From a virus: DNA of 37,090 nucleotides. The stretch lies in IMG/VR virus record IMGVR_UViG_3300037504_000106, positions 1 to 37,090 of that record; one strand, 5' to 3'. The notes below the pieces were generated by a model. It saw nothing but the letters and a program-made list of their open reading frames with translations. It had not been told where the DNA came from and ran no database searches. The stretch's first letter is position 1. Each line of letters begins with the position of its first letter. Below, in pieces: positions 1,027 through 37,031 of this stretch. The position numbers and the translations under genes were made by a program.

Positions 1027-2009
1027 GTGGCAACCTCCTCGCCGTAGCGCTCGGGATACATCCGCGCGAGGTATGCCTTACGCGCGGCCTCGCGGTCCTC
1101 AGGCGTAGGGGATGCTATCGCGCCGTTTGCAGCGAGCTCGTTGACGTGTCGGTGAAACTGGCGAATGGAATACTGCCCGTCCTCGGTGAACCAGTACTCG
1201 CCGGTGTAGTAGCGCCTGAGTCTGGTCATAGCCTCGTCGAACCCGAGCTTCTTGCGGACCTGCTGCAAGTGCTTCCCGTCCTCGCCGCTGAACGCGTACG
1301 GCGTGCCGGTAGCCTGCTGGTGCAGCGACATCGCCGCGTCGACGAGTTGCTGGTGCTCGCTCGGCGGTTTGGCTGGCGCGGCCTGTGGTTCCGGCTCGGG
1401 GTCGTCGTGAAACAGCTCAGGTGTCGAGTCTGCGTTATCCACAGAGTTATCCACAGGCTCATCATGCCGGTGACCGGAATCGGTCACCACTAGCGAAGCT
1501 AGTGTCTTATTCTTATCTCCTAGAGTATCCTGTTCTATTCTAGCTACGTTTTGCTCTGGCACCGCTTTAGCACTGCTAGGTTCTGCTATAGCACTGCTAT
1601 CCTCTTGCTGTAGCACTGCTTTAGCACTGCTACGTCCTGCTTTAGCAAGTCCACCCTTCTGCCCTGCCGCCTGTTTGGCTCGCTTTTTCTCTTCCCAAGC
1701 CTCCATTCGACGGTTGAGAGACTCCGACCAGAAATGCTCTCCGTCTGACTGGAATAGGTCGAACTCCTCTATGCACGCCGTAACGAACTCCTGCGACTGC
1801 TCGGGCGTACACATCATCTTTTTCGCGAGTGCCGACCAGATGTACCCTTTCGTCTTGAGCTTGTAGCCGTCCGTGCGTCTGAGTACCTCGATGACGATCC
1901 AGAACATGCCGTAGCCAGCGACGCCATACCGCAACATGAGCGCTTCGATCTTGATGTCGGTGTGCGCTCCCGCATCGTGTGTAAACCAATAATCGTCTTT
2001 GTTTGTCAT
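1023..2009 (-). CDS. DUF4373-type replication initiator-like protein (328 aa)
   Basis: The N-terminal ~90 residues carry the DUF4373 (Lin1244/Lin1753-type) pattern: HDAGAHTDIKIEAL, GVAGYGMFWIVIE and a conserved tryptophan/tyrosine-rich core. Such proteins occur in phage replication modules, often beside DnaD-like parts. The middle (about residues 110-215) is low-complexity, rich in A, S, E and D, and is encoded by repeats and DnaA boxes that look like an origin. The C-terminal third is helical and resembles the DnaD/DnaT-like tails of phage initiators. I chose ATG 2009, which has GGTGAGG directly upstream; the longer open frame runs through the tmRNA-like element and is not coding. A role in replication initiation is inferred from domain and origin, in analogy to lambda O. 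Confidence 0.85.
   Translation of the reverse strand: MTNKDDYWFTHDAGAHTDIKIEALMLRYGVAGYGMFWIVIEVLRRTDGYKLKTKGYIWSALAKKMMCTPEQSQEFVTACIEEFDLFQSDGEHFWSESLNRRMEAWEEKKRAKQAAGQKGGLAKAGRSSAKAVLQQEDSSAIAEPSSAKAVPEQNVARIEQDTLGDKNKTLASLVVTDSGHRHDEPVDNSVDNADSTPELFHDDPEPEPQAAPAKPPSEHQQLVDAAMSLHQQATGTPYAFSGEDGKHLQQVRKKLGFDEAMTRLRRYYTGEYWFTEDGQYSIRQFHRHVNELAANGAIASPTPEDREAARKAYLARMYPERYGEEVAT
1435..1632. other. Candidate replication origin inside the initiator-like gene
   Basis: Read on the plus strand, the region contains two perfect DnaA boxes TTATCCACA at 1435-1443 and 1447-1455. These are followed by an 8-bp inverted repeat (1469-1476 with 1481-1488, loop GAAT) and a 7-bp inverted repeat (1488-1494 with 1498-1504, loop GAA). 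Next comes an AT-richer stretch at about 1504-1556, then four iterons (1568-1632). This combination within a replication-initiator gene mirrors the lambda ori arrangement inside gene O and iteron plasmid origins. Individual elements are seen directly; origin function is inferred. Confidence 0.65.
1568..1632. repeat. Four phased iterons TAGCACTGCT(A/T)
   Basis: The palindromic 11-mer TAGCACTGCTA occurs at 1568-1578, 1589-1599 and 1622-1632, with a one-base variant at 1611-1621. Start-to-start distances are 21, 22 and 11 bp, close to whole helical turns, so bound proteins would lie on one face of the DNA. Partial copies (TGCTTTAGCA near 1637-1646) flank the array. In the protein the repeats encode alanine- and serine-rich, poorly conserved sequence, as expected if DNA function constrains this part of the gene. 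Confidence 0.75.
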
Positions 2010-2021
2010 CCTCACCCCTGC

Positions 2022-2099
2022 TGGACGCGCCGGGATTCGAACCCGGGTGCGCCGCGTGCCGCGTGCGGCCTCTCGCGACGTCGAAACCATCCCACGCCC
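2022..2099 (-). ncRNA. tmRNA-like tRNA-like domain without an mRNA domain
   Basis: On the minus strand, GGGCGTG (2099-2093) pairs with CGCGTCC (2029-2023) as a seven-base acceptor stem including a G3-U70 wobble, with A73. The T arm is perfect (CCGGG, loop TTCGAAT, CCCGG). There is no U33 and no possible anticodon loop. Instead, the segment after the acceptor reads GGATGGTTTCGACG, with the spacing and sequence of the tmRNA 5' end. The remaining bases can form one long stem (GTCGCG with CGCGGC, capped by GCCG-CACG-CGGC) where tmRNA would have helix 2 and its mRNA-like domain. No CCA is encoded (GCA follows A73). The tRNA-like fold is well supported; the tmRNA derivation is inference. Confidence 0.6.
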
Positions 2100-2258
2100 T
2101 GATGCTGCCGGACGCCTCTTTACCGCCCGGCAGCCAAGTCCACTGTTGTACGAGTCTATGCATGGCGGCGGGCCGTATGCCCACCTATACCCCATTACGT
2201 CGGTCAATACCGCACGTCCCGCGCTATATCTGGGGCGCGTACCCGTGTTGTCACCCGT

Positions 2259-4732: not shown

Positions 4733-5031
4733 CGCGCTAACTCCATCTCCATGATCTCGACCACCTCGTCGAGTGACCGCGCGACAAACGCGCAGCAGCC
4801 GGCGGTCATCGCGCGCTCAATCCACTCGTCCTGCGCCTGACTGACTACGCCGCCCCGAGGTCGTTTGACCTCGATCGCGAGAAACCGCCCGCCGGGTAGG
4901 TAGCCAATGATGTCAGGAGCCCCGACTCGACCGACGGTGTACCGCCGCCGGTCGATGTGGTTCTTCCATGCCTCGACACCCCGGATTTTGAGGTAGTCCA
5001 GGATGTCGCGCTGGATGTCTTGCTCGGTCAC
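4729..5031 (-). CDS. VRR-NUC domain nuclease (100 aa)
   Basis: A complete minimal VRR-NUC (PD-(D/E)XK-type) domain is present: an N-terminal helix with the conserved E and Q (EQDIQRDILDYL), then GAPDIIG with the catalytic aspartate, the AIEVKR motif with E-x-K, and a downstream QxxW region (SQAQDEWIERA). Members cleave structured DNA and often accompany phage helicases. The start overlaps the stop of the helicase-methylase gene as ATGA. Its first 28 residues are repeated almost exactly in the truncated frame at 7526-7759 on the other side of that gene. Confidence 0.92.
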   Translation of the reverse strand: MTEQDIQRDILDYLKIRGVEAWKNHIDRRRYTVGRVGAPDIIGYLPGGRFLAIEVKRPRGGVVSQAQDEWIERAMTAGCCAFVARSLDEVVEIMEMELAR

Positions 5032-7526
5032 GCGGTGACCTCTTCCAAATCGAATAAGGTGGGATGGTTCACCTCATCCTCTATCATGCGGAGGTAGCTC
5101 ACGCCGTCCTTGTACGATTGCTCATTGAGCTCTATACCGTAGCCACGACGACCGAGCTTTACCGCCATGTACGGTACAGTCATAAGCCCGCCGAATGGAT
5201 CAAGCACAAGCTCGCCTGGATTCGAGAACCTGTTAATAATCCGCTCGACGATGTCGAACTGTAGCGGGCAGACGTGCATCTCAAGCTCTTTTCGTGCTTG
5301 TTCACCGTTGAGCGTTCGCATCCGGTTGATGTTATCCCATACGTCCGGATGCCACGATCCAGGGGCCACGACCATGAACGAGGCCGGTAGTTTGTTCTTG
5401 ACTTCTAACGTCTTCGCGAGCTCGACATGCTCACGGTAGTTGTACACTCCACCCCTACTGTACTGCCGGTAGACTGCCTGCAAATCCGATACTGCGACGT
5501 TTTCCAGTTCATCGCCCTCGAGTAGTCGATCACCGGACGACCGCCAGAACGCGTGCGCATCGATCTGCCACTGCGCTCGCGTGTATTCAGTTTTCGTTTT
5601 CACGACCGGCTCATCCGCATAGGCACGGCTGGTATCTGTCGGCAGTTTGCGAAACAGGAGGATGTACTCTGGGCACCCTACGCCCATCTTCGTGCCGTCT
5701 TTTGTCTGCTCTGTCCATCCAAGCCGGTACGTCTGGTTGTTCTCGCGGACCACATCGGTCACGACGGTGATGCGCCCAAAGAACTGGAACCCGTGCTTGA
5801 TCATGTGTGCAGTCGTTAGGTCGCTGAATGGGTCTACCGTCGGCATCCCGGTGCCTGTTGCGTTGCCGAACAGAATCCGGTCCTTCACATGGATAGCCGC
5901 TACCCTGCCCGGCTTTAGAACCCGCATTAACTGCGGCGTGAGGTAGTCCATCTGCTCGAAAAACCGATCATTGTCACGGTTGTGTCCGAAGTCGTTGTAG
6001 GTCGGCGTGTACTCGTAGTGGTTGCTAAACGGTATCGAAGTATGGATAAGGTTAACACTGTTGGTGTCCATGCGCTCGACCTCGAATACGTTATCACTGA
6101 GCACGGCAGTCCATTTGGCGCCGTTTTGCTCATGGCGCCCGTCGACTATCGAGCGTGAAAGCTTAGCTTTGACGTCGGTCGATGCAAGCCCATGTCGCCG
6201 AACTATCTCAGTCATCTGCGACACAAGCTTGTCATGCTGCACCCACTTTGCTTTCAACGCATCGAGGATCGCCTGCTCGCTCTCGGTATGGATGATATGT
6301 ATCTCGACCTGCCCGGTTTGCAGGTATCGGTAGATGCGGTGAATAGCCTGAATCAAGTCATTGAACTTATAGTCGATGCCGAGAAATACCGCTTTCCGGC
6401 AGTGCCGCTGGAAGTTGCACCCAGAGCCGCTAATCTCCGGTTTCGTCGCGAGGTACTGGATTCGGCCATCGGCGAAGTCGATAGCATTAGCTGCCCGCTC
6501 TTCTTCATCTTGCGAGCCGTAGATAGGCTTGGCATCCGGGACCGCTTTCTTGATCGCTGCCCGCTCTGCTTCCAGGGTGTGCCAAATGATGTAGTGCTCT
6601 CCGGGGTCGCCATCGAGGATTTCGCGCATCTTCGCGACTCGCGCCGGTATGCTGTCGCGCTTCTCCCTCGCAGCATCTTTGAGCCCGGTCGCAGCGTCGC
6701 GAAACATCTTTACCTGACCATCCTGATCCTGACCCGCGGTGTTGTGGTCGACGGATACCTCATGGTAGTGGACCTGCAACGGTGGCAGGTCGTATCCGGC
6801 ATCATCGTACCCGAGGTCGCTTGGTCGCGTGATGAAAAGCGCCCATGTCGAGAGCCACAACCAAAACTCCTGCTCTTTGTGCGGGTAGATCGTCAGGTTA
6901 TTCGCCTTCGTGCTGTCCCGTTTGAAAAACCTGGTGAGTGCCTGGCCAGTGTCCATAACTCCGAGATAGCCGGCGTAGTGAATCAGCTCTTTGTATTTAT
7001 TCGGGCTGGGTGTCGCGGTGGCCACGAACCTGAACCTGGTGTGTGCAAACTTTGCGAGGAACGTTTGGTATGTCTTGGTGCCGTATCCGCGCAGGATACT
7101 TGCCTCATCCAGTGACGCCGCAACAAAATACGCCGGGTCGATGTCACCGTCCCGCACGCGCTCATAGTTAGTAATGAGTATAGGCGTATCCGTCGCTCGG
7201 ATCTCATCCATGGTGCGGACGTACTCAATCTCCACGTCCAGCAGCTTTTGACCGTCGCGCACAAACTCATGCCGGACCTCCAAGGGTGCGACAATAAGCG
7301 CTTGGCCGCCCTCGTGCTTCGTGATGAGCCTGAGGATCTCAATCTGCTGGATAGTTTTGCCAAGCCCGAACGACTCGAACAGCGCCCGCCGTCCACCCTG
7401 GACCGCCCACACCACCGCGTCTTGCTGGTGCGGTTGTAGAGCCGGGTGTATTTCGTCCCGGCTAATATTTATGCCTTGCTGGTCTGCTACGACCATCTTG
7501 CCCAATAGAAAGTCTCGATATGTCAT
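5028..7526 (-). CDS. SNF2-type helicase fused to a DNA methylase domain (832 aa)
   Basis: The N-terminal half is an SF2/SNF2 helicase. It has Q-motif region HPALQPHQQDAVVW, Walker A FGLGKT near residue 53, DEAS box near 140, ATATPS motif III near 170, and motif VI QAIHRIYR near 393. The C-terminal third is an N4/N6 methylase-like domain with a catalytic-position motif SIPF near 497 (expected form (D/N/S)PP(Y/F)) and an AdoMet-binding motif LDPFGG near 775 followed by GRRGYGIELN, in permuted order. Helicase-methylase fusions of this kind are found in phage genomes; proposed roles are modification of phage DNA or replication-linked remodelling. GGAGGG lies eight bases upstream. The variant SIPF raises doubt about catalysis. 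Confidence 0.9.
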   Translation of the reverse strand: MTYRDFLLGKMVVADQQGINISRDEIHPALQPHQQDAVVWAVQGGRRALFESFGLGKTIQQIEILRLITKHEGGQALIVAPLEVRHEFVRDGQKLLDVEIEYVRTMDEIRATDTPILITNYERVRDGDIDPAYFVAASLDEASILRGYGTKTYQTFLAKFAHTRFRFVATATPSPNKYKELIHYAGYLGVMDTGQALTRFFKRDSTKANNLTIYPHKEQEFWLWLSTWALFITRPSDLGYDDAGYDLPPLQVHYHEVSVDHNTAGQDQDGQVKMFRDAATGLKDAAREKRDSIPARVAKMREILDGDPGEHYIIWHTLEAERAAIKKAVPDAKPIYGSQDEEERAANAIDFADGRIQYLATKPEISGSGCNFQRHCRKAVFLGIDYKFNDLIQAIHRIYRYLQTGQVEIHIIHTESEQAILDALKAKWVQHDKLVSQMTEIVRRHGLASTDVKAKLSRSIVDGRHEQNGAKWTAVLSDNVFEVERMDTNSVNLIHTSIPFSNHYEYTPTYNDFGHNRDNDRFFEQMDYLTPQLMRVLKPGRVAAIHVKDRILFGNATGTGMPTVDPFSDLTTAHMIKHGFQFFGRITVVTDVVRENNQTYRLGWTEQTKDGTKMGVGCPEYILLFRKLPTDTSRAYADEPVVKTKTEYTRAQWQIDAHAFWRSSGDRLLEGDELENVAVSDLQAVYRQYSRGGVYNYREHVELAKTLEVKNKLPASFMVVAPGSWHPDVWDNINRMRTLNGEQARKELEMHVCPLQFDIVERIINRFSNPGELVLDPFGGLMTVPYMAVKLGRRGYGIELNEQSYKDGVSYLRMIEDEVNHPTLFDLEEVTA

Positions 7527-10977: not shown

Positions 10978-11237
10978 CCTGTCACCTCATCTACCGGCAT
11001 GAGTGCCTCAATCACGAGGCACAGCAATTGACGCTGGCTGTTTATCCCGAGCTTGTTGTACGCCCTCCATGCGGCAGCGGCGACTCGCTCGCGGGTGCTG
11101 CCGATGCGCGCGGCGATATCAGTCTGCGAGAGTCCAGCGAGCATCAGGTCCACGACCTCGCGCTCGGCGTCGGTGAGTTGCTCCACACCCGGCAGGTACT
11201 CACTCGGGAGTTTGCTGGTCAGTGGGTAGACGCTCAT
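10974..11237 (-). CDS. LuxR/GerE-type helix-turn-helix protein (87 aa)
   Basis: The protein is little more than a GerE/LuxR C-terminal DNA-binding domain: LTDAEREVVDLMLAGLSQTD, then IAARIGSTRERVAAAAWRAY and the K-LGI-S-R-Q-L ending. There is no receiver or ligand domain, so it resembles stand-alone sigma-region-4-like regulators of phages. It overlaps the ParB-like gene by four bases upstream (GTGA/ATGA-type) and the next gene downstream. It probably regulates phage transcription. Confidence 0.85.
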   Translation of the reverse strand: MSVYPLTSKLPSEYLPGVEQLTDAEREVVDLMLAGLSQTDIAARIGSTRERVAAAAWRAYNKLGINSQRQLLCLVIEALMPVDEVTG

Positions 11238-12031
11238 GCAGAAGCCTCCTGATTCATACGGACCGACAGCGCCCGCAACCGCTTTATGACTGTGTTCACG
11301 ATCTCGTGCTTGACAGGGTTAGACTCAACGCCTTCCAGGACGCGATCGACATAATCAACGATGAGAAAGACCGGACGCTCTGAGGAGTCGAAGATTGGTC
11401 CGGTCACTGCTGACTTCCTCGCCGTCGGTTGCCCTTCTCGCTGAGGTTCCGGCTTGCTCGGCTCCGGCGCATCTTCCTCGGCGTCGTACCATGGCTGTTG
11501 CGCCTTTGGAGGTTCCTGCTTCCGCCCGATGTTCCTGGTCTTCATCGTGGCCGTGGTGCCGTGCTTGGTGGTGTAGGTGCGGGGCTCACTGTCGCCTGTA
11601 GACAGTGACGAACGGATACGGCTGACAAATGAGTTGTGCACCCCACACCGCCGCGCTATCTCCCTGTCGCTCCACTGCCGCCACTCTTCATCGTTGAGTA
11701 GTGCCATCACAGCCCGGCGCTTATCTGCATTCGTCCGGCGTAGGCCATGCTGAGCATTCGCCCCTACTGAGTGGAGGATTGCGTCGCGACGGGTTCCCTG
11801 GCGGATCTCCGCCTCGAGCTCGACGGTACCGATTCTCTTCGCAGCAGCGACGCGGTGGAACCCATCGGCCAGCCAGTAGTCCGATCCGTCGTAGTAGACG
11901 GTCACCGGCGGGAACGTTGCTCCCTCGGCCATCGCCTCCGCGTATTCCCGAACCACGTCCATCTTGATAGCAGCTCGCGGTTGCGTACCGCCGTCCGTTC
12001 TAATGTCGACGGCAAGGATCGTCTCGGTCAT
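11234..12031 (-). CDS. ParB-like protein without a ParA partner (265 aa)
   Basis: Residues 1-95 are a ParB/sulfiredoxin-fold domain: GTQPRAAIKMDVVREYAEAM, TFPPVTVYYDGSDYWLADG and the GFHRVAAAKR box. Residues 95-150 carry a ParB-type helix-turn-helix (WSDREIARRCGVHNSFVSRI). The rest is linker with a helical end. Chromosomal and plasmid ParB proteins bind parS and use CTP; stand-alone phage homologues act as regulators or, in phage-plasmids, in partition. No ParA-type Walker ATPase is visible in the window. It lies third in the leftward operon after a ribbon-helix-helix protein. Confidence 0.88.
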   Translation of the reverse strand: MTETILAVDIRTDGGTQPRAAIKMDVVREYAEAMAEGATFPPVTVYYDGSDYWLADGFHRVAAAKRIGTVELEAEIRQGTRRDAILHSVGANAQHGLRRTNADKRRAVMALLNDEEWRQWSDREIARRCGVHNSFVSRIRSSLSTGDSEPRTYTTKHGTTATMKTRNIGRKQEPPKAQQPWYDAEEDAPEPSKPEPQREGQPTARKSAVTGPIFDSSERPVFLIVDYVDRVLEGVESNPVKHEIVNTVIKRLRALSVRMNQEASA

Positions 12032-18619: not shown

Positions 18620-21466
18620 TCACACCCTCCCGTAGCGAGCGATAAACCGACCATAAGTATCAGGGTCAGGGTATGAATCACCATTGGCGATAGTGATATA
18701 CGGCTGCTCGTCTGACTCCGAAACTGCCGCATTTTGGAAAAATCGGCTCCCTTTTGCGGTCCAGATAACCTGGTCATTCTGCGCTTTGACGATCCGCACT
18801 CCATGGACAATGATGCGATTGGCACTCGAGGCGTTAATCGCGGTCGCCACCGATACGTTGTCGTCTTCCGTGATGGTATCAATGCTATCGGGGTCAGACC
18901 AGCCGCCGAGTGCCGAGGTCTCGCGAAAGGCGCCGGCTGCATCAAGCCCGAAAGATCGTGCTCCGATCGCATCGCCGATCTGCTTGATGTGCTCCCATAT
19001 ACTCGTGTTGCGCGGTATGAGCGCCCACGGATGCGTCACGTCAACAGGCTCAGCGTAGAACCCAACCGTGTCGTAGGCGTCCGACTGTGCCGAGTCAGCA
19101 GATACGCTTCCGGATGTACCATCATGAGTTGTCTCAACTATCCAGTTTGTTGGCACCGCCGTCTTGGTAAGCATGACGGAATCCGCGAAAATCTCATCGC
19201 CATTTGACGCGGAGATTTTTATGATTAACCGGTCGCTATCGGCATCCGTGACCGTGTGGGTGACGGAAAACAACTCATAGTAGTCCTGTGCTGCGGCTAT
19301 CGTAGCAACGGAGGTCGTCTCGTCGTTGAGTCCTCCGCTATCATGCTCCTCGATCTCAATGGTGCTGCTTGCTGCCGTTGAGCTTTTGAGCATGACCGCC
19401 AGGGTGTAGGTGTCGCCTACGTTGAGCTTCGTGTCTCCGGTGTAGAGTATAGTCTGCTGGATAGTGCCGGCGCCTCCGGTTGCATCCAAAGAGGCGCACG
19501 CGGCCCCTAAGAACTCGTCAGTTGTGTTCTTGGTGAGAGAAAACCCGGCGCCACTTGCGGTCCACGAATCGCTGATTGTCGTTGTCTCAAAGCCACTGTT
19601 GGCCGCGTAGTTGAAGATTTCGGCCTGCGTCGCCAAACGCGCAACTGTATGCAGAACACTTGATGACTCATCCGAGTCGATGAGCTTGTAGTTCTCGTAG
19701 TGCCGGGCTCGGCGCTTGCGCTCCCTGGCGATGCGCGATACGAAATCAATCGCGGACAAGTTCACTCGACTCGTTGCTCCGGCGCTGCTAACTCGGCTGT
19801 AGCGGGTGTTGTCAAGCTCGCCGTAGAAAACGGTTTCGCGGTCTCCGTCTTTCCATGTCTCGTGCCAAATGCGCGAGCGCTTTTGCAGGTACTTCTGGCT
19901 CACTGTGCCGTTGAAATTGTTAGTCGTCGGGTCGTAGCTTGCATACTGGTCGTCCGAGAATACCCCACCAGAGTTGAGGAGCTGCGTTGTTGCGCGGTTC
20001 GCCATGTAGGAACCGACAGTGTTTTCTTTTTGCTTGCTCCGGGTGTTGCGTTCGACGAAACGCGTCACATCAACGCGTGTGCGCCCCACTCCCTCACCGT
20101 TAAAATCCCACACAATCATCTCGTTGGTTACGTCCGCATAGTCGTTTTGTACATCCGCGTCGGTCGCCACGTAGTCAGGTATGAGCATGGCATAGGCGTA
20201 TTCGGTTTCGCCATTGAACGCACCCGCTTCATCGCCGAATGAGAGACGTGGGAAATTGCTTACCTTCGTGTCAATGGGACCGGACCACGTTTTGTCCTGT
20301 GATGTTTTGTTCATCCACAGTTGACTTCCGACAGTTGTGCCGGTTGATAGGTCAATTGCTACGTCTATAGTTAGCCATTGGTTGAGATCGGTGTAGGTTG
20401 TTCCATCGTCGAATTGTTGTGCTTGTAACACACGAAGCGTACCGCCATCTTGCCAATACGCCTGTATTAGATCGACACCCGCTTGGTAGTAAATGATAAA
20501 TCGATTTGTTGAATCAATATACCATTCTGCAAAGCGATGACTTGTAGCAGAGTCATAATCAAACCACGGCCTGACCACCAACCGCAAGGTAAACTTCTCC
20601 GGCATCTCCACGAGGTAATCAGGCTCGATGTCAGATAGGACATTGGCGCGGACGTTGTATAGATACTCTATCTCCGTCTCTGTCAACGCTCGGTTGTAGA
20701 TGCGGACGTCGTCGATGTCGCCGTCGAACCAGTAGATGCTATTATTGTCGGACCCTATATACAGTGTCCCGCCCGGTGTTGTTATGGTTTTGCCTGTGCT
20801 ACTTTGCGACACTTGGGAGCCATCAAGATAGAGTGTATACCGATCTCCATCGTACACAACTACGAGGTGATGCCATGACGTATCATGCGTAACTGCATGC
20901 GAGTCGACAGAGCTGCTTGATGTTGGGTAATCACCATACACGAAAATGCTCGTCGAATTAAATAGCACACCCCAGCCATTACTAAATGATTGATGCATTA
21001 TTGGTGCGTCAATTGTAGTAGGAGTATTAGTGAATTTATACCAGAATCCCCACGACCACGGCGAAGTTGATGTACTCGGGCCTGAAAATGTAGTGCTTGC
21101 CACATCATCATCCACTCCGTCAAACCGCAGCGCCTTTCCTAACCCCGGAACACCGGCAACCTGAACCGCACCTGAGATAGTCCCGTCATTACTCCCGTAG
21201 TCATCGGTTAACGTAGTACCCGAAACGTTGTCCATGGTGTAGTGAGCTACCAAACCATCAGACGGATAGTTCGCCGTGCCGATGAATGCGGACGCTGATC
21301 CAGGAAAGTTGTACCCCGATCGCGCCCAGTTGTATGCCATGGAGGTCTTGGTTAGTTCAGGATAGTCCTGCCTGCGGAAGTCGAGAAAAACCCGCTCGTC
21401 TCGAGTGTACTGGTATTCGCTTTTCAGCGCGTCTTTGCGAGCTGAGGTGATGTGCTGTATCGCCAT
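18620..21466 (-). CDS. Large tail-tip protein with inserted LamG/concanavalin-like domains (948 aa)
   Basis: After a phage-type N-terminus (KDALKSEYQYTRDERVFLDF), residues 65-275 form a LamG domain: GLVAHYTMDNVSGTTLTDDY, KALRFDGVDDDV, WHHLVVVYDGDRYTLYLDGS, and DGDIDDVRIYNRALTETEIE. A second lectin-like region follows (about 290-470). The remaining half includes RTRVDVTRFVERNTRSKQKE and a carbohydrate-binding-type beta sandwich (about 625-760), then a C-terminal tail-hub-like part. It lies directly after the tape measure gene, where distal-tail and baseplate proteins are encoded. It is probably the tail hub with glycan-binding domains. Confidence 0.82.
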   Translation of the reverse strand: MAIQHITSARKDALKSEYQYTRDERVFLDFRRQDYPELTKTSMAYNWARSGYNFPGSASAFIGTANYPSDGLVAHYTMDNVSGTTLTDDYGSNDGTISGAVQVAGVPGLGKALRFDGVDDDVASTTFSGPSTSTSPWSWGFWYKFTNTPTTIDAPIMHQSFSNGWGVLFNSTSIFVYGDYPTSSSSVDSHAVTHDTSWHHLVVVYDGDRYTLYLDGSQVSQSSTGKTITTPGGTLYIGSDNNSIYWFDGDIDDVRIYNRALTETEIEYLYNVRANVLSDIEPDYLVEMPEKFTLRLVVRPWFDYDSATSHRFAEWYIDSTNRFIIYYQAGVDLIQAYWQDGGTLRVLQAQQFDDGTTYTDLNQWLTIDVAIDLSTGTTVGSQLWMNKTSQDKTWSGPIDTKVSNFPRLSFGDEAGAFNGETEYAYAMLIPDYVATDADVQNDYADVTNEMIVWDFNGEGVGRTRVDVTRFVERNTRSKQKENTVGSYMANRATTQLLNSGGVFSDDQYASYDPTTNNFNGTVSQKYLQKRSRIWHETWKDGDRETVFYGELDNTRYSRVSSAGATSRVNLSAIDFVSRIARERKRRARHYENYKLIDSDESSSVLHTVARLATQAEIFNYAANSGFETTTISDSWTASGAGFSLTKNTTDEFLGAACASLDATGGAGTIQQTILYTGDTKLNVGDTYTLAVMLKSSTAASSTIEIEEHDSGGLNDETTSVATIAAAQDYYELFSVTHTVTDADSDRLIIKISASNGDEIFADSVMLTKTAVPTNWIVETTHDGTSGSVSADSAQSDAYDTVGFYAEPVDVTHPWALIPRNTSIWEHIKQIGDAIGARSFGLDAAGAFRETSALGGWSDPDSIDTITEDDNVSVATAINASSANRIIVHGVRIVKAQNDQVIWTAKGSRFFQNAAVSESDEQPYITIANGDSYPDPDTYGRFIARYGRV

Positions 21467-24915: not shown

Positions 24916-25367
24916 GCGCCCTCCGTCTGCTTTTGGAGTTGAAAAAATAGTTGCCCGTCTCTGCGACCAACGTCCTGTATGTGCCACTTACGGTCTGTGT
25001 AGTAGCCGTACTTCTGCCCGTGCATTGTGCGCGGGTCGAAGTAGTTCATGCTATGCTCGCTAAACGCATGATGGTGCGTGATGTCGGTGTAGGCATCGAC
25101 GCTCCGCCAATGGACTGTCTGGATGTAGAGATTTCCCTCCGGTTTGGTTACTCGCCAACACTCGTTAATGAGTCCGAGCACATCGTGCACATGCTCGATT
25201 ACGTCGAGTGCATAGATTGACGAAAATTGGCCATCATCAAACGGCCAAGGCATCCGCGTGATATCCAGTATGGTGTCTACAATCGGAGTCTCTCGGTAGT
25301 CCACATTGATTACAGGTTCGTCAGCACCGGTAATCGGATTGTCTCCACACCCAAGATTCAAAATCAC
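24912..25367 (-). CDS. Class I SAM-dependent methyltransferase (151 aa)
   Basis: The AdoMet site is clear: motif I NLGCGDNP near residue 3, the acidic residue after strand 2 (VINVDYRE near 20), IYALDVIEHVHD near 50 and WRVTKPEGNLYIQT near 70. This is a Methyltransf_11-type domain, somewhat short, starting directly at motif I. It overlaps the glycosyltransferase gene by four bases. The pair resembles surface-glycan or virion-glycan modification modules. The substrate cannot be read from sequence. Confidence 0.88.
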   Translation of the reverse strand: MILNLGCGDNPITGADEPVINVDYRETPIVDTILDITRMPWPFDDGQFSSIYALDVIEHVHDVLGLINECWRVTKPEGNLYIQTVHWRSVDAYTDITHHHAFSEHSMNYFDPRTMHGQKYGYYTDRKWHIQDVGRRDGQLFFQLQKQTEGA

Positions 25368-26368
25368 GCTATAGCCTCCAGTAGTCTCTCAGCGGCATTT
25401 CGCCACGTGTACTGCCGCATCGTCTCGCTTGCTCGCCTTCCTCGCTCAACGGCCACCGGGTAATCTTCCATTACCTCGATCATCCGGTCTATGATGTGGT
25501 CAATGTCCGCGCTCGCGTTATGCGTGCACATGTATTGGTCTTCATCAAACGGGTTGACAAACCGTGTCTCTTTCATCTCGTACCGCACCGGGTAACTATT
25601 CGACTCGTCCGCGAACGCCGGGATCGAGCTCCACGGCGTCACGATACTTGGGAGTCCCGTAGCCATCGCCTCGCACAACGTCAAACCCCATCCCTCGCCC
25701 ATTGTCGGAAGCAGAAAGCCGTGTGCGTAATGATACAGATCCGCAAGGGTCGGCCGGTTCTGGTCTATTGCATCCCGATTCGTCCGGGGGAGAATCCGAG
25801 AATCCTCCCACACGTTCGGGCTGATTTGCCGAAACCGCTCGACGCGGTCGTGACTCGTAAACTTGAGAATCAACCGAGTCTTGTCGCGCCACTCCTGATG
25901 CTTATCGTAGAAATCAACCCACGCCTGCACGACGTGGTTGAATCCTTTCCGGGCGTTTTTAGCGCCGACGTACAGCCAAGTGTAGACACCGTCATCCGGC
26001 TCGCTCCGCTCTTTGTAGTAGTACCGATCGACGTCGACTCCCTCCGGCGCTATGCGAATCGGCACAGCGGTGTACTGTCCGATTACCTCTCGGCTAAACT
26101 CGCACGGCACAACGATAAGGTCCGGCTGCTGGAGCGGGGGGCGAAACTCCTCGGGAATCTCCGCAAACTCCCACATGCTGTACAGCACATTCCGGCGGCC
26201 GAACTCTGGCTTGAAATAGTAGAATGGTAGTAGATGCAAGACGGTTTCTGCATCGTCTACTAACTCAACCCCGAGGTCTACCAATGCGCCGGCGAGCATT
26301 GCCGCGTGCGTCGAATATCCAAAGGCGTTTCCGACACCCGGCGTCGACCCTCTCAACGTCAACTTCAC
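25364..26368 (-). CDS. GT4-type glycosyltransferase (334 aa)
   Basis: The protein has a GT-B layout: an N-terminal half with GVGNAFGYSTHAAMLAGALV, SMWEFAEIPEEF, LIVVPCEFSREVIGQY and PIRIAPEGVDVDRYYY, and a C-terminal half with YVGAKNARKGFNHVVQAW and the EX7E motif in LLPTMGEGWGLTLCEAMATG, then LPSIVTPWSS. GT4 enzymes transfer sugars from nucleotide-sugar donors with retention. The start is GTG 26368, overlapping the upstream stop as GTGA. A complete glycosyltransferase inside the tail operon is unusual and suggests virion or host-surface glycosylation. Confidence 0.92.
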   Translation of the reverse strand: MKLTLRGSTPGVGNAFGYSTHAAMLAGALVDLGVELVDDAETVLHLLPFYYFKPEFGRRNVLYSMWEFAEIPEEFRPPLQQPDLIVVPCEFSREVIGQYTAVPIRIAPEGVDVDRYYYKERSEPDDGVYTWLYVGAKNARKGFNHVVQAWVDFYDKHQEWRDKTRLILKFTSHDRVERFRQISPNVWEDSRILPRTNRDAIDQNRPTLADLYHYAHGFLLPTMGEGWGLTLCEAMATGLPSIVTPWSSIPAFADESNSYPVRYEMKETRFVNPFDEDQYMCTHNASADIDHIIDRMIEVMEDYPVAVERGRRASETMRQYTWRNAAERLLEAIA

Positions 26369-34870: not shown

Positions 34871-36546
34871 AGTATCAGTAGCCCCCGCTCTTCGTAGACG
34901 CTCTCCGTGCCGTTATAACGTACCGCGCGGTCGAGCGCCATAACTGCTGCGACGATATTGTCGATCCGCTTTCGGCTCTTGGTGCGATCGGGTTTGACGA
35001 GACGTACCAGGCCAGTCGGGCCTTGCCACAGGTTGACGCATCCCATCTGCCAGCGAATCAGCGGATTGTCTCCGTGCGCCATCTCGCCGGCGAATGCCTT
35101 ACTCTCAAACTCTTTGACCGCCGGGCTCATGGACTGTGACCCTTGGCGGAACTCGTACATCTCAACTCCGAGCTCAGTCAGGTCTTGCGCAAACTGCTGC
35201 GCTCCCCACGGATCGTAGCACACTTCCTTGAGCTGGTAACGTTCGGCCGCGTCCAAAATGTATTGCTTGATGAACTCGAGGTCGATTATCTCTCCGGGTG
35301 TCGTACTCAACAGTCCTTGCTCGACCCACACGTCATACGGCACGCGATCGGAGTCGATGTGCTGCACAAGCGTATCCTGCGGCATCCAGGCATGGTGTAC
35401 AAATTGAAACGGCTCCCCTTCGCTTTCCGGCGGGAAGCAGAGAGCACACGCGGCTAAGTCCACGCGGCTTGCAATGTCGATTCCGCCAAGGCATACCCGG
35501 TCCTGCAGCGCAGACACATCCACCTCGGTCTCGTTCCGGCGCCACACGTCTATCGACAGCCACACCGTCTCTTGCTGCGTCCAAACATCCAATTTCTTGG
35601 TGAGGAACTCGGTTTGCTTCGACGGCATCTCGATTGCTTTCTGGAACATCTTTCGCATGTCGTCTTCATTGACAGACACGCCAAGATTCGGGTTTGCCTT
35701 GATCCAGACCGACTCGTCCTTCCAGTCATCCTCCTCGTCCAGGGTGTAGATGATAGCGAAGTAGTTCTCGTTCGTGTTCGTGCCGTCCAGGACGCCGGCC
35801 GCGTATTCCATTTCGTCGTAGCACGGGACGGAAATGTCGAGTCCTGCTGTCGTGATAATCCACAGGAGCGGCTGTGTACGCGATCCCATTCCAGAGCGGA
35901 GCACCTCAACCATGCCGGCGCTCTTGTGCGCGTGGTACTCGTCAACGAGAGCACCATGCACGTTCAACCCGTCCTCCGTGTTGGAGTCCTCGCCGAGCGG
36001 CTTGAAGAATGCGGCCGTCCGCGATACGAAGAGGTTGTCCCGGTGCTTGGTTATGAGCTGCTTCAGGTCGTGGGACTTCTCGTACATCTGTACCGCCGCG
36101 CGGTGGATGATGCGCGCCTGGTCGCGTTTCGTCGCGGCAGTGTAGACCTGCGCGCCGGCTTCTTTATCTGCGGCCAGGAGCGCGAGGCCAATTGCCGCGA
36201 GCTTCGTTGACTTGCCGTTCTTCCTCGCTACTTGCTCATAGACCTCGTTGAATCGCCTGTGCCCGGTACGCGCATGCACCCAGCCAAAAACGGAGGCGAT
36301 AATAAACTGCTGCCATGGCTCGAGCTCCAACGGCTCGCCTGCCTTTTCGCCCTCGAAGTGCTTGCAAAACGTCTGAATGAATCTGATTACATGCTCGCCT
36401 CGCTTTTGGTCGAAAATGTAGGGAAAGCCGTCGGTGTCCTGCCGTTGGAGATCCCGCAGGTGTCGCGCTACAGCATTCTGGACGTGCTGGCACGCGACCA
36501 TCTTTCCCTGCTGAATGTCCCTGCAGTACCTATTCCACGGTTTCAC
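34867..36546 (-). CDS. terL: Terminase large subunit (559 aa)
   Basis: The ATPase has a Walker A variant in VARKNGKST (residues 106-114), a Walker B ALVDEY (199-204), and a coupling-motif region LWIITTAGLD. The RNase H-like nuclease half starts at GGIDIASRVDLAACALCF (catalytic aspartates) and includes VCYDPWGAQQFAQDL. This is the Terminase_1 family typical of cos-type HK97 phages. It pumps DNA through the portal and cuts concatemers. It overlaps the small subunit stop by one base. Confidence 0.96.
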   Translation of the reverse strand: MKPWNRYCRDIQQGKMVACQHVQNAVARHLRDLQRQDTDGFPYIFDQKRGEHVIRFIQTFCKHFEGEKAGEPLELEPWQQFIIASVFGWVHARTGHRRFNEVYEQVARKNGKSTKLAAIGLALLAADKEAGAQVYTAATKRDQARIIHRAAVQMYEKSHDLKQLITKHRDNLFVSRTAAFFKPLGEDSNTEDGLNVHGALVDEYHAHKSAGMVEVLRSGMGSRTQPLLWIITTAGLDISVPCYDEMEYAAGVLDGTNTNENYFAIIYTLDEEDDWKDESVWIKANPNLGVSVNEDDMRKMFQKAIEMPSKQTEFLTKKLDVWTQQETVWLSIDVWRRNETEVDVSALQDRVCLGGIDIASRVDLAACALCFPPESEGEPFQFVHHAWMPQDTLVQHIDSDRVPYDVWVEQGLLSTTPGEIIDLEFIKQYILDAAERYQLKEVCYDPWGAQQFAQDLTELGVEMYEFRQGSQSMSPAVKEFESKAFAGEMAHGDNPLIRWQMGCVNLWQGPTGLVRLVKPDRTKSRKRIDNIVAAVMALDRAVRYNGTESVYEERGLLIL

Positions 36547-37031
36547 TACACGGACTCGTTGAGAAACTTGAGGAGCTCTGAGCCTTTATCGTCGTCAGAT
36601 TGCTTGATGTGCAGTTTTTCTCGTACGCTTGGGGTAATTCCGAACAGCGTGTAGTACTGGCGTTTTTCCTTCTGGATCTCGAGCGCTTCCTTTGCGGCCG
36701 GGTTTGGAACGCGCTTGGCGCCGCCGTTTCCGAACTCCTGCCACAAATACCGACCATTTTCCTCGATGTCGGCCAGTGCCTGTTTTTCCGCTGCCTCGAG
36801 CTCGCACAAAGTAGCAAGCGCCTCTCTGTCGCCTGATTGCAGAAGACCTGCGCCGTGCAATTTACCTGCGTACCATCGCCAGTACTTCCGTGCAGCTTTG
36901 GTCAGTGATGCCGGCATCGTCGGCTTGGCATCGCCTATGATCGGGGCATCATCGGTATCGTGGCGATCCGGTCGATAGGTGCCCTCAATCTGATGTACAG
37001 CGGCCGGTTTCCGTGGTCTGCCTTTTGGCAT
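36546..37031 (-). CDS. terS: Terminase small subunit, P27 family (161 aa)
   Basis: MPKGRPRKPAAVHQIEGTYR is the classic start of P27/Terminase_4 small subunits, followed by MPASLTKAARKYWRWYAGKL, GLLQSGDREALATLCELEAA, then a linker and VPNPAAKEALEIQKEKRQYY. The protein recognises the packaging site and recruits the large subunit. GGAGGG lies four bases before ATG 37031. The packaging site should be near the start of this gene, that is close to the window ends. Confidence 0.95.
   Translation of the reverse strand: MPKGRPRKPAAVHQIEGTYRPDRHDTDDAPIIGDAKPTMPASLTKAARKYWRWYAGKLHGAGLLQSGDREALATLCELEAAEKQALADIEENGRYLWQEFGNGGAKRVPNPAAKEALEIQKEKRQYYTLFGITPSVREKLHIKQSDDDKGSELLKFLNESV

Follow-up and report, generated by a model that had tools for sequence, protein, structure and literature searches.

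The linker-coding part of the initiator gene in the phage genome studied here very probably serves as a theta-type replication origin, placed inside the coding sequence of the protein that would act on it. The window is the whole IMG/VR record IMGVR_UViG_3300037504_000106 (37,090 bases), which has genes for terminase, portal, head protease, capsid and tail. Its initiator gene holds a phased iteron array, an AT-rich tract, two hairpins and two DnaA boxes; iteron arrays and purine tracts of this kind are conserved at the DNA level across the initiator's family, and in one related gene the N-terminal domain and the iterons have been exchanged together against a constant C-terminal module with the DnaA boxes. 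By analogy with lambda, SPP1, TP901-1 and pSK41, we infer protein binding, melting, helicase recruitment and origin use in vivo as follows: the winged-helix Lin1244_N domain would bind the helically phased 11-bp iterons to form a nucleoprotein complex, this complex would strain and open the adjacent AT-rich, purine-biased tract, and the C-terminal domain, aided by host DnaA bound to the DnaA-box pair, would recruit the host helicase and its loader.

To delimit the initiator, we took the ATG at 2009 as its start, which places the beginning of the Lin1244_N match at residue 8; the listed open reading frame of 413 amino acids begins further upstream. The protein had been proposed in an earlier note to be a DUF4373-type initiator, and this assignment is borne out by a Pfam match to PF14297 (Lin1244_N, or DUF4373) at residues 8 to 97 (E value of 6.5e-13; 49.7 bits against a gathering cut-off of 25), which places its N-terminal domain in that family, and by a PHROGs match to phrog_2562, "replication initiation protein." An AlphaFold2 model built from 59 sequences is confident for the N-terminal domain (pLDDT above 90 for residues 21 to 120), predicts a disordered linker (pLDDT below 50 over residues 153 to 184 and 186 to 203) and shows a helical C-terminal domain at moderate confidence. 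The N-domain model superimposes on winged-helix DNA-binding domains, namely those of CRP (VIA; 2.1 to 2.6 Å over 64 to 67 residues, Z about 7); given that a Z of about 7 is common for winged helices, these matches show the fold only. The matches are to generic winged helices, that to the N-domain of DnaD having a Z of 6.8 but an rmsd of 6.4 Å (VIA), and a Foldseek search of the predicted structure against the PDB returned no match at an E value of ≤0.001. Nor was a RepA_N domain recognized in the initiator, PF14297 being its only Pfam match at an E value of 0.01 or better; a fold in common with RepA_N is conceivable, the structural matches being to generic winged helices only. The product of the gene directly downstream is a possible replication partner of the initiator.

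Along the direction of transcription, the elements follow each other in the order N-domain, iterons, AT-rich tract, hairpins, DnaA boxes and C-domain (Table 1). All of them lie inside the coding sequence, in or adjoining the low-confidence, presumably disordered part of the protein model; the earlier note had located them in the low-complexity middle of the gene. That note had described four palindromic iterons spaced 21, 22 and 11 bp, and we found these positions and spacings to be accurate (TAGCASTGCTA at 1568, 1589 and 1622, and a copy with one mismatch at 1611), but the count to be understated, given that the palindromes are members of a phased array of nine sites. On the coding strand the units start with AGCA or AGCG at 1642, 1632, 1621, 1610, 1599, 1588, 1578, 1567 and 1556, with spacings of 10, 11, 11, 11, 11, 10, 11 and 11 bp, and in 20,000 shuffled versions of the segment no AGCR chain was longer than three. 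The AT-richer stretch noted before has its maximum (0.64) in 1500 to 1549, directly beside the array, and the two adjacent inverted repeats likewise hold up, with 0/200 shuffles folding equally well as DNA. The two perfect DnaA boxes 12 bp apart are real as well and are the only exact ones in the record, for which 0.13 exact boxes and about 5e-6 same-strand pairs within 20 bp would be expected. The gene combines two hallmarks of an in-gene iteron origin, a repeat array within the initiator gene that is selected at the DNA level and an adjacent AT-rich region, with the two exact DnaA boxes beside the iterons that characterize DnaA-dependent iteron origins.

Table 1 Features of the initiator gene and its putative origin
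Feature	Position	Strand	Remarks
Initiator gene, 328 aa	1023-2009	minus	N-terminal Lin1244_N winged-helix domain, disordered linker with the putative origin, helical C-terminal domain
Lin1244_N (PF14297) domain, predicted to bind the iterons	1719-1988	minus	Pfam, AlphaFold2, winged-helix matches; iteron sharing tracks the N-domain
Iteron array, helically phased, nine AGCR-headed units	1546-1642	minus	Four palindromes (TAGCASTGCTA/AAGCAGTGCTA) are members
AT-rich, purine-biased tract (TAGAATAGAACAGGATACTCTAGGAGATAAGAATAAGACAC)	1502-1542	minus	Degenerate form of the tract with 5-bp period seen in the family; candidate unwinding element
DNA hairpin ACTAGC-GAA-GCTAGT	1489-1503		6-bp arms, GAA/TTC loop
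DNA hairpin GGTGACCG-GAAT-CGGTCACC	1469-1488		8-bp arms, 4-nt loop
Exact DnaA box TTATCCACA	1447-1455	plus	Conserved letter for letter in L002
Exact DnaA box TTATCCACA	1435-1443	plus	Conserved letter for letter in L002
C-terminal module (DnaA-box pair and helical domain)	1023-1463	minus	Common to L002, whose N-domain differs
Downstream gene, 142 aa	598-1026	minus	Directly 3' of the initiator gene, which it also adjoins in L002; no clear family match

The gene that shares the C-terminal module (88% amino acid identity) comes from IMGVR_UViG_3300037504_000138, here called L002. It retains an unbroken block with both DnaA boxes and zero changes relative to the initiator gene, while its N-domain belongs to phrog_1408 and the TAGCA iterons are absent. 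In their place stands an array with its autocorrelation strongest at lags 33, 22 and 11 (P ≤ 4e-4 each), followed by a GGGAA tract (lags 10, 5 and 15) and, preceding the DnaA boxes as in our initiator gene, by a hairpin. Searches with the C-terminal domain recovered only L002 from the viral contigs and nothing from the phage collection, and a search of the viral contigs with the N-domain of L002 found L002 alone. This exchange has a counterpart in a wider set of 91 genes, among which iteron sharing tracks N-domain identity when the C-domain is controlled for (Mantel test, 0/500; the converse gave a P value of 0.13). Judged from these sequences, the iterons follow the N-domain and not the C-domain, which is the pattern to be anticipated for an N-domain that recognizes the iterons and moves together with them.

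The place of the DnaA boxes in this scheme is less firm. They might form a separate element, used for titration of host DnaA or for transcription control, beside an iteron origin that is independent of DnaA, a reading that is compatible with the array as origin and that we regard as unlikely but deserving of some weight. It is favored by the rarity of the boxes, the exact 9-mers searched for having been found in only 2/155 genes of the Lin1244_N family, so that their role rests on two genomes, and by the occurrence of the same tandem pair (TGTGGATAACNNTGTGGATAAC) in at least 120 viral-contig stretches (L170-L289), mostly outside long reading frames. Against it, all 10 codons across the pair are identical between the initiator gene and L002, compared to 75/109 synonymous codons kept in the rest of the module, although this contrast (P = 0.06) is no more than suggestive of stronger conservation at silent sites in the DnaA block. 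In addition, no helicase loader (DnaC), DnaB or primase was recognized among the record's genes, which leaves a job for DnaA; this fits a part for the boxes in initiation but does not prove it. The tandem pair was also considered as a marker of initiator genes and discarded, because its occurrences lie mostly outside long reading frames and never accompany Lin1244_N; a DnaA-box pair with 12-bp spacing seems to be a common phage element.

To see how far the origin elements extend across the family, we collected relatives by their N-domain from viral contigs, genome contigs and phage records and reduced them to 112 nonredundant genes; a search of the genome contigs with the whole protein gave no relative of the initiator. 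The linker was defined as gene nucleotides 300 to 500, and flanking 200-nt blocks and codon shuffles served as controls. By a strict 7-mer measure, repeats occur in the linker at lag 11 in 50% of the genes, at lag 22 in 40% and at lag 33 in 38%, compared to 1.6, 1.5 and 2.2% of 2,119 flanking blocks and about 2, 2 and 4% of codon shuffles, and in 0% of the linkers at lags 13 and 14. About a third of the family genes have no repeat at lag 11, 22 or 33 by this measure. Since a step of 11 bp shifts the reading frame, selection acts here on the DNA; the change of frame at each unit rules out a peptide repeat as well as growth by one unit without a frameshift. The letters of the iteron core vary by lineage (GCAATGC, GCGAACGC, GTTCAAC, CGGAAAA and others), and GCANTGC, the core of the palindromes in our array, is found in 34 of the 77 genes having an array. 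The exact sequence TAGCANTGCTA proved too narrow as a family motif (8/155 genes), the conserved feature being the period and not the letters. A second cluster of 7-mers with 11-bp spacing was observed in the part coding for the N-domain, at gene nucleotides 150 to 200 (27/112 genes at lag 11, e.g., L042, L062 and L068).

Directly after the array, 87 of the 112 genes contain a purine tract with a 5-bp period, typically GGAAAGTAAAG, called at a period threshold of 0.7; among the controls it appears in 2/1,788 flanking blocks and 1/560 codon shuffles. In 60 of the 65 genes having both elements, the tract begins where the iterons end or beyond that point. With a lag-5 score of 0.53, the tract of our record is a degenerate version compared to the 0.7 or more reached in these 87 relatives. 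When PF14297 genes were sampled independently from whole genomes, about half of those that could be read had the tract, and the 11-bp period was seen chiefly in the subgroup with an N-domain similar to that of the 328-amino-acid initiator. It is conceivable, though on balance we doubt it, that this strand-biased tract ((GGAAA/GTAAA)n), which about 78% of Lin1244_N genes have and which recurs in a second initiator family (L002), represents a novel sequence-specific element for unwinding or single-strand loading, comparable to the DnaA-trio but built of pentamers. Together with one-turn iteron arrays, it would then form a general, portable in-initiator origin module recombined between phage lineages.

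The binding sites of an initiator often serve to control its expression as well, and the array lies inside a transcribed gene. It might therefore be an autoregulatory operator, through which the initiator binds its own gene as a roadblock to limit expression, with the true origin elsewhere. We consider this quite improbable, because an operator alone needs neither the adjoining 5-bp-period tract of the relatives nor DnaA boxes, because the segment is the most repeat-rich 200-nt stretch of the whole 37-kb record and no other repeat cluster in it comes close, and because well-studied systems of similar layout use the in-gene site as origin. Still more remote is the idea that the repeats merely reflect a low-complexity linker, arising by slippage or by selection on a charged, disordered peptide: the linker is indeed predicted to be disordered, but neither period (11 or 5) is divisible by 3, so that successive units encode different peptides and slippage by a single unit shifts the frame, both periods are absent from codon shuffles and flanking blocks, and the unit length stays at 11 while the unit sequence varies between lineages.

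The genomic context of the relatives agrees with the proposed origin in the initiator gene. A gene for a DnaC-like loader follows the relatives in Porphyromonas and Enterococcus phages, and one for a DnaB-like helicase follows the relative in a Vibrio phage. Among plasmids, the annotation of the circular 36.6-kb pCT01 showed no candidate initiator besides its Lin1244_N gene; elements of the EF62phi type have entries as Enterococcus plasmids as well, but EF62phi is weaker evidence because it also has a DnaD-like gene. GC skew was uninformative for the record, pCT01 and EF62phi; the detrended minima of the record and pCT01, with nearly all genes pointing one way, do not mark the initiator gene. 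Taken together, the earlier proposal of a phage origin built from iterons and DnaA boxes is supported by the 11-bp iterons and purine tract of the family, the tracking of the N-domain, the loader and helicase neighbors and the plasmid relatives, but has to be amended in that the DnaA boxes do not characterize the Lin1244_N family but belong to the C-terminal module common to L002.

Several other features of the record were observed. Just upstream of the initiator start codon, a tRNA/tmRNA-like piece (2020 to 2102, minus strand) has a GGTTCGAATCCCGGCGCGTCC T-arm, acceptor-like ends and GGATGGTTTCGAC near its 5' end; neither ARAGORN nor Rfam at its gathering threshold called it, cmscan gave only a subthreshold tRNA-like match, and its fold is no better than that of shuffles. 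It is possibly the remnant of an att site. Also on the minus strand are genes for an 832-amino-acid protein in which an SNF2-type helicase portion is joined to an N6/N4 DNA methylase portion (5028 to 7526) and a ParB-like protein (phrog_1033; 11234 to 12031), the latter of which, taken with the putative origin, may point to a phage-plasmid life style. Among the structural genes lie, likewise on this strand, those for a large protein with laminin-G and carbohydrate-binding domains (18620 to 21466) and a glycosyltransferase (25364 to 26368). Genes for an HNH endonuclease (52 to 456) and the small terminase (36546 to 37031), both on the minus strand, lie at opposite ends of the record, and pCT01 has HNH, terS and terL in a row, suggesting that the sequence could be a nearly complete genome in circular permutation.

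If the proposed origin is correct, a large phage protein family labeled only DUF4373 or "replication initiation protein" gains a mechanism and a locatable origin, with the iterons and the candidate unwinding tract of most members readable from the gene. Initiator specificity can be tested directly on the paired swap of DNA-binding domain and iterons next to an unchanged C-terminal module, and the tract with 5-bp period provides a specific candidate unwinding signal that lends itself to testing. The open literature that we searched yielded no origin for DUF4373/Lin1244_N initiators, no one-turn array shared by several phyla and no 5-bp-period tract, and the mentions of DUF4373 concerned only iron in Bacteroides/Bacteroidetes. 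In-gene iteron origins are a known kind, and the Lin1244_N architecture appears to be undescribed in this open literature; the finding is ordinary in principle, and in its details it is wider in reach and more regular than anticipated.

Replication initiators with repeats inside their own gene are found in other phages, including SPP1, TP901-1 and Tuc2009, and the layout described here resembles theirs, the binding being predicted in our case. SPP1 gp38, TP901-1 ORF13 and Tuc2009 Rep2009 are not known to be members of PF14297. In SPP1, the in-gene direct repeats of gp38/oriL are bound by the gene's own product and act as an origin (PMC6316719), and the same holds for the lactococcal replisome organizers ORF13 of TP901-1 and Rep2009 of Tuc2009 (PMC8965321). 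The PF09681 genes examined (Phage_rep_org_N; L297-L310 and L317) differ in having closely spaced copies of other palindromes, such as GTAACGTTAC or GTCACGTGAC, and no 5-bp-period tract at the threshold of 0.7. Their linkers, in which the palindromes are followed by GAAGAA/ATAGAT-rich tracts, are probably in-gene origins too, written in other letters. The RepA_N plasmid pSK41 has its origin centrally in rep (PMC5703833), and for pPR9 (PMC5703833) and for PLE RepA (PMC8263062) a joint exchange of N-domain and origin beside a constant C-domain is reported, as we see in L002. These systems differ from ours in their N-terminal family and, for PLE, in an intergenic origin, and the passages concerned describe no DnaA-box pair that travels with the C-terminal module. 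In lambda, finally, the origin lies in the middle of gene O, with iterons followed by an AT-rich region that unwinds (PMC7466680), the iterons being 19-bp inverted repeats (PMC5043065). Our segment differs from it in the initiator family, in short sites at one-turn (10 to 11 bp) spacing instead of 19-bp iterons and in the DnaA-box pair at the C-terminal edge, and resembles it in the position inside the initiator gene and in the combination of iterons with an AT-rich region; in relatives of the gene, a loader or helicase gene lies downstream, just as O is followed by P.
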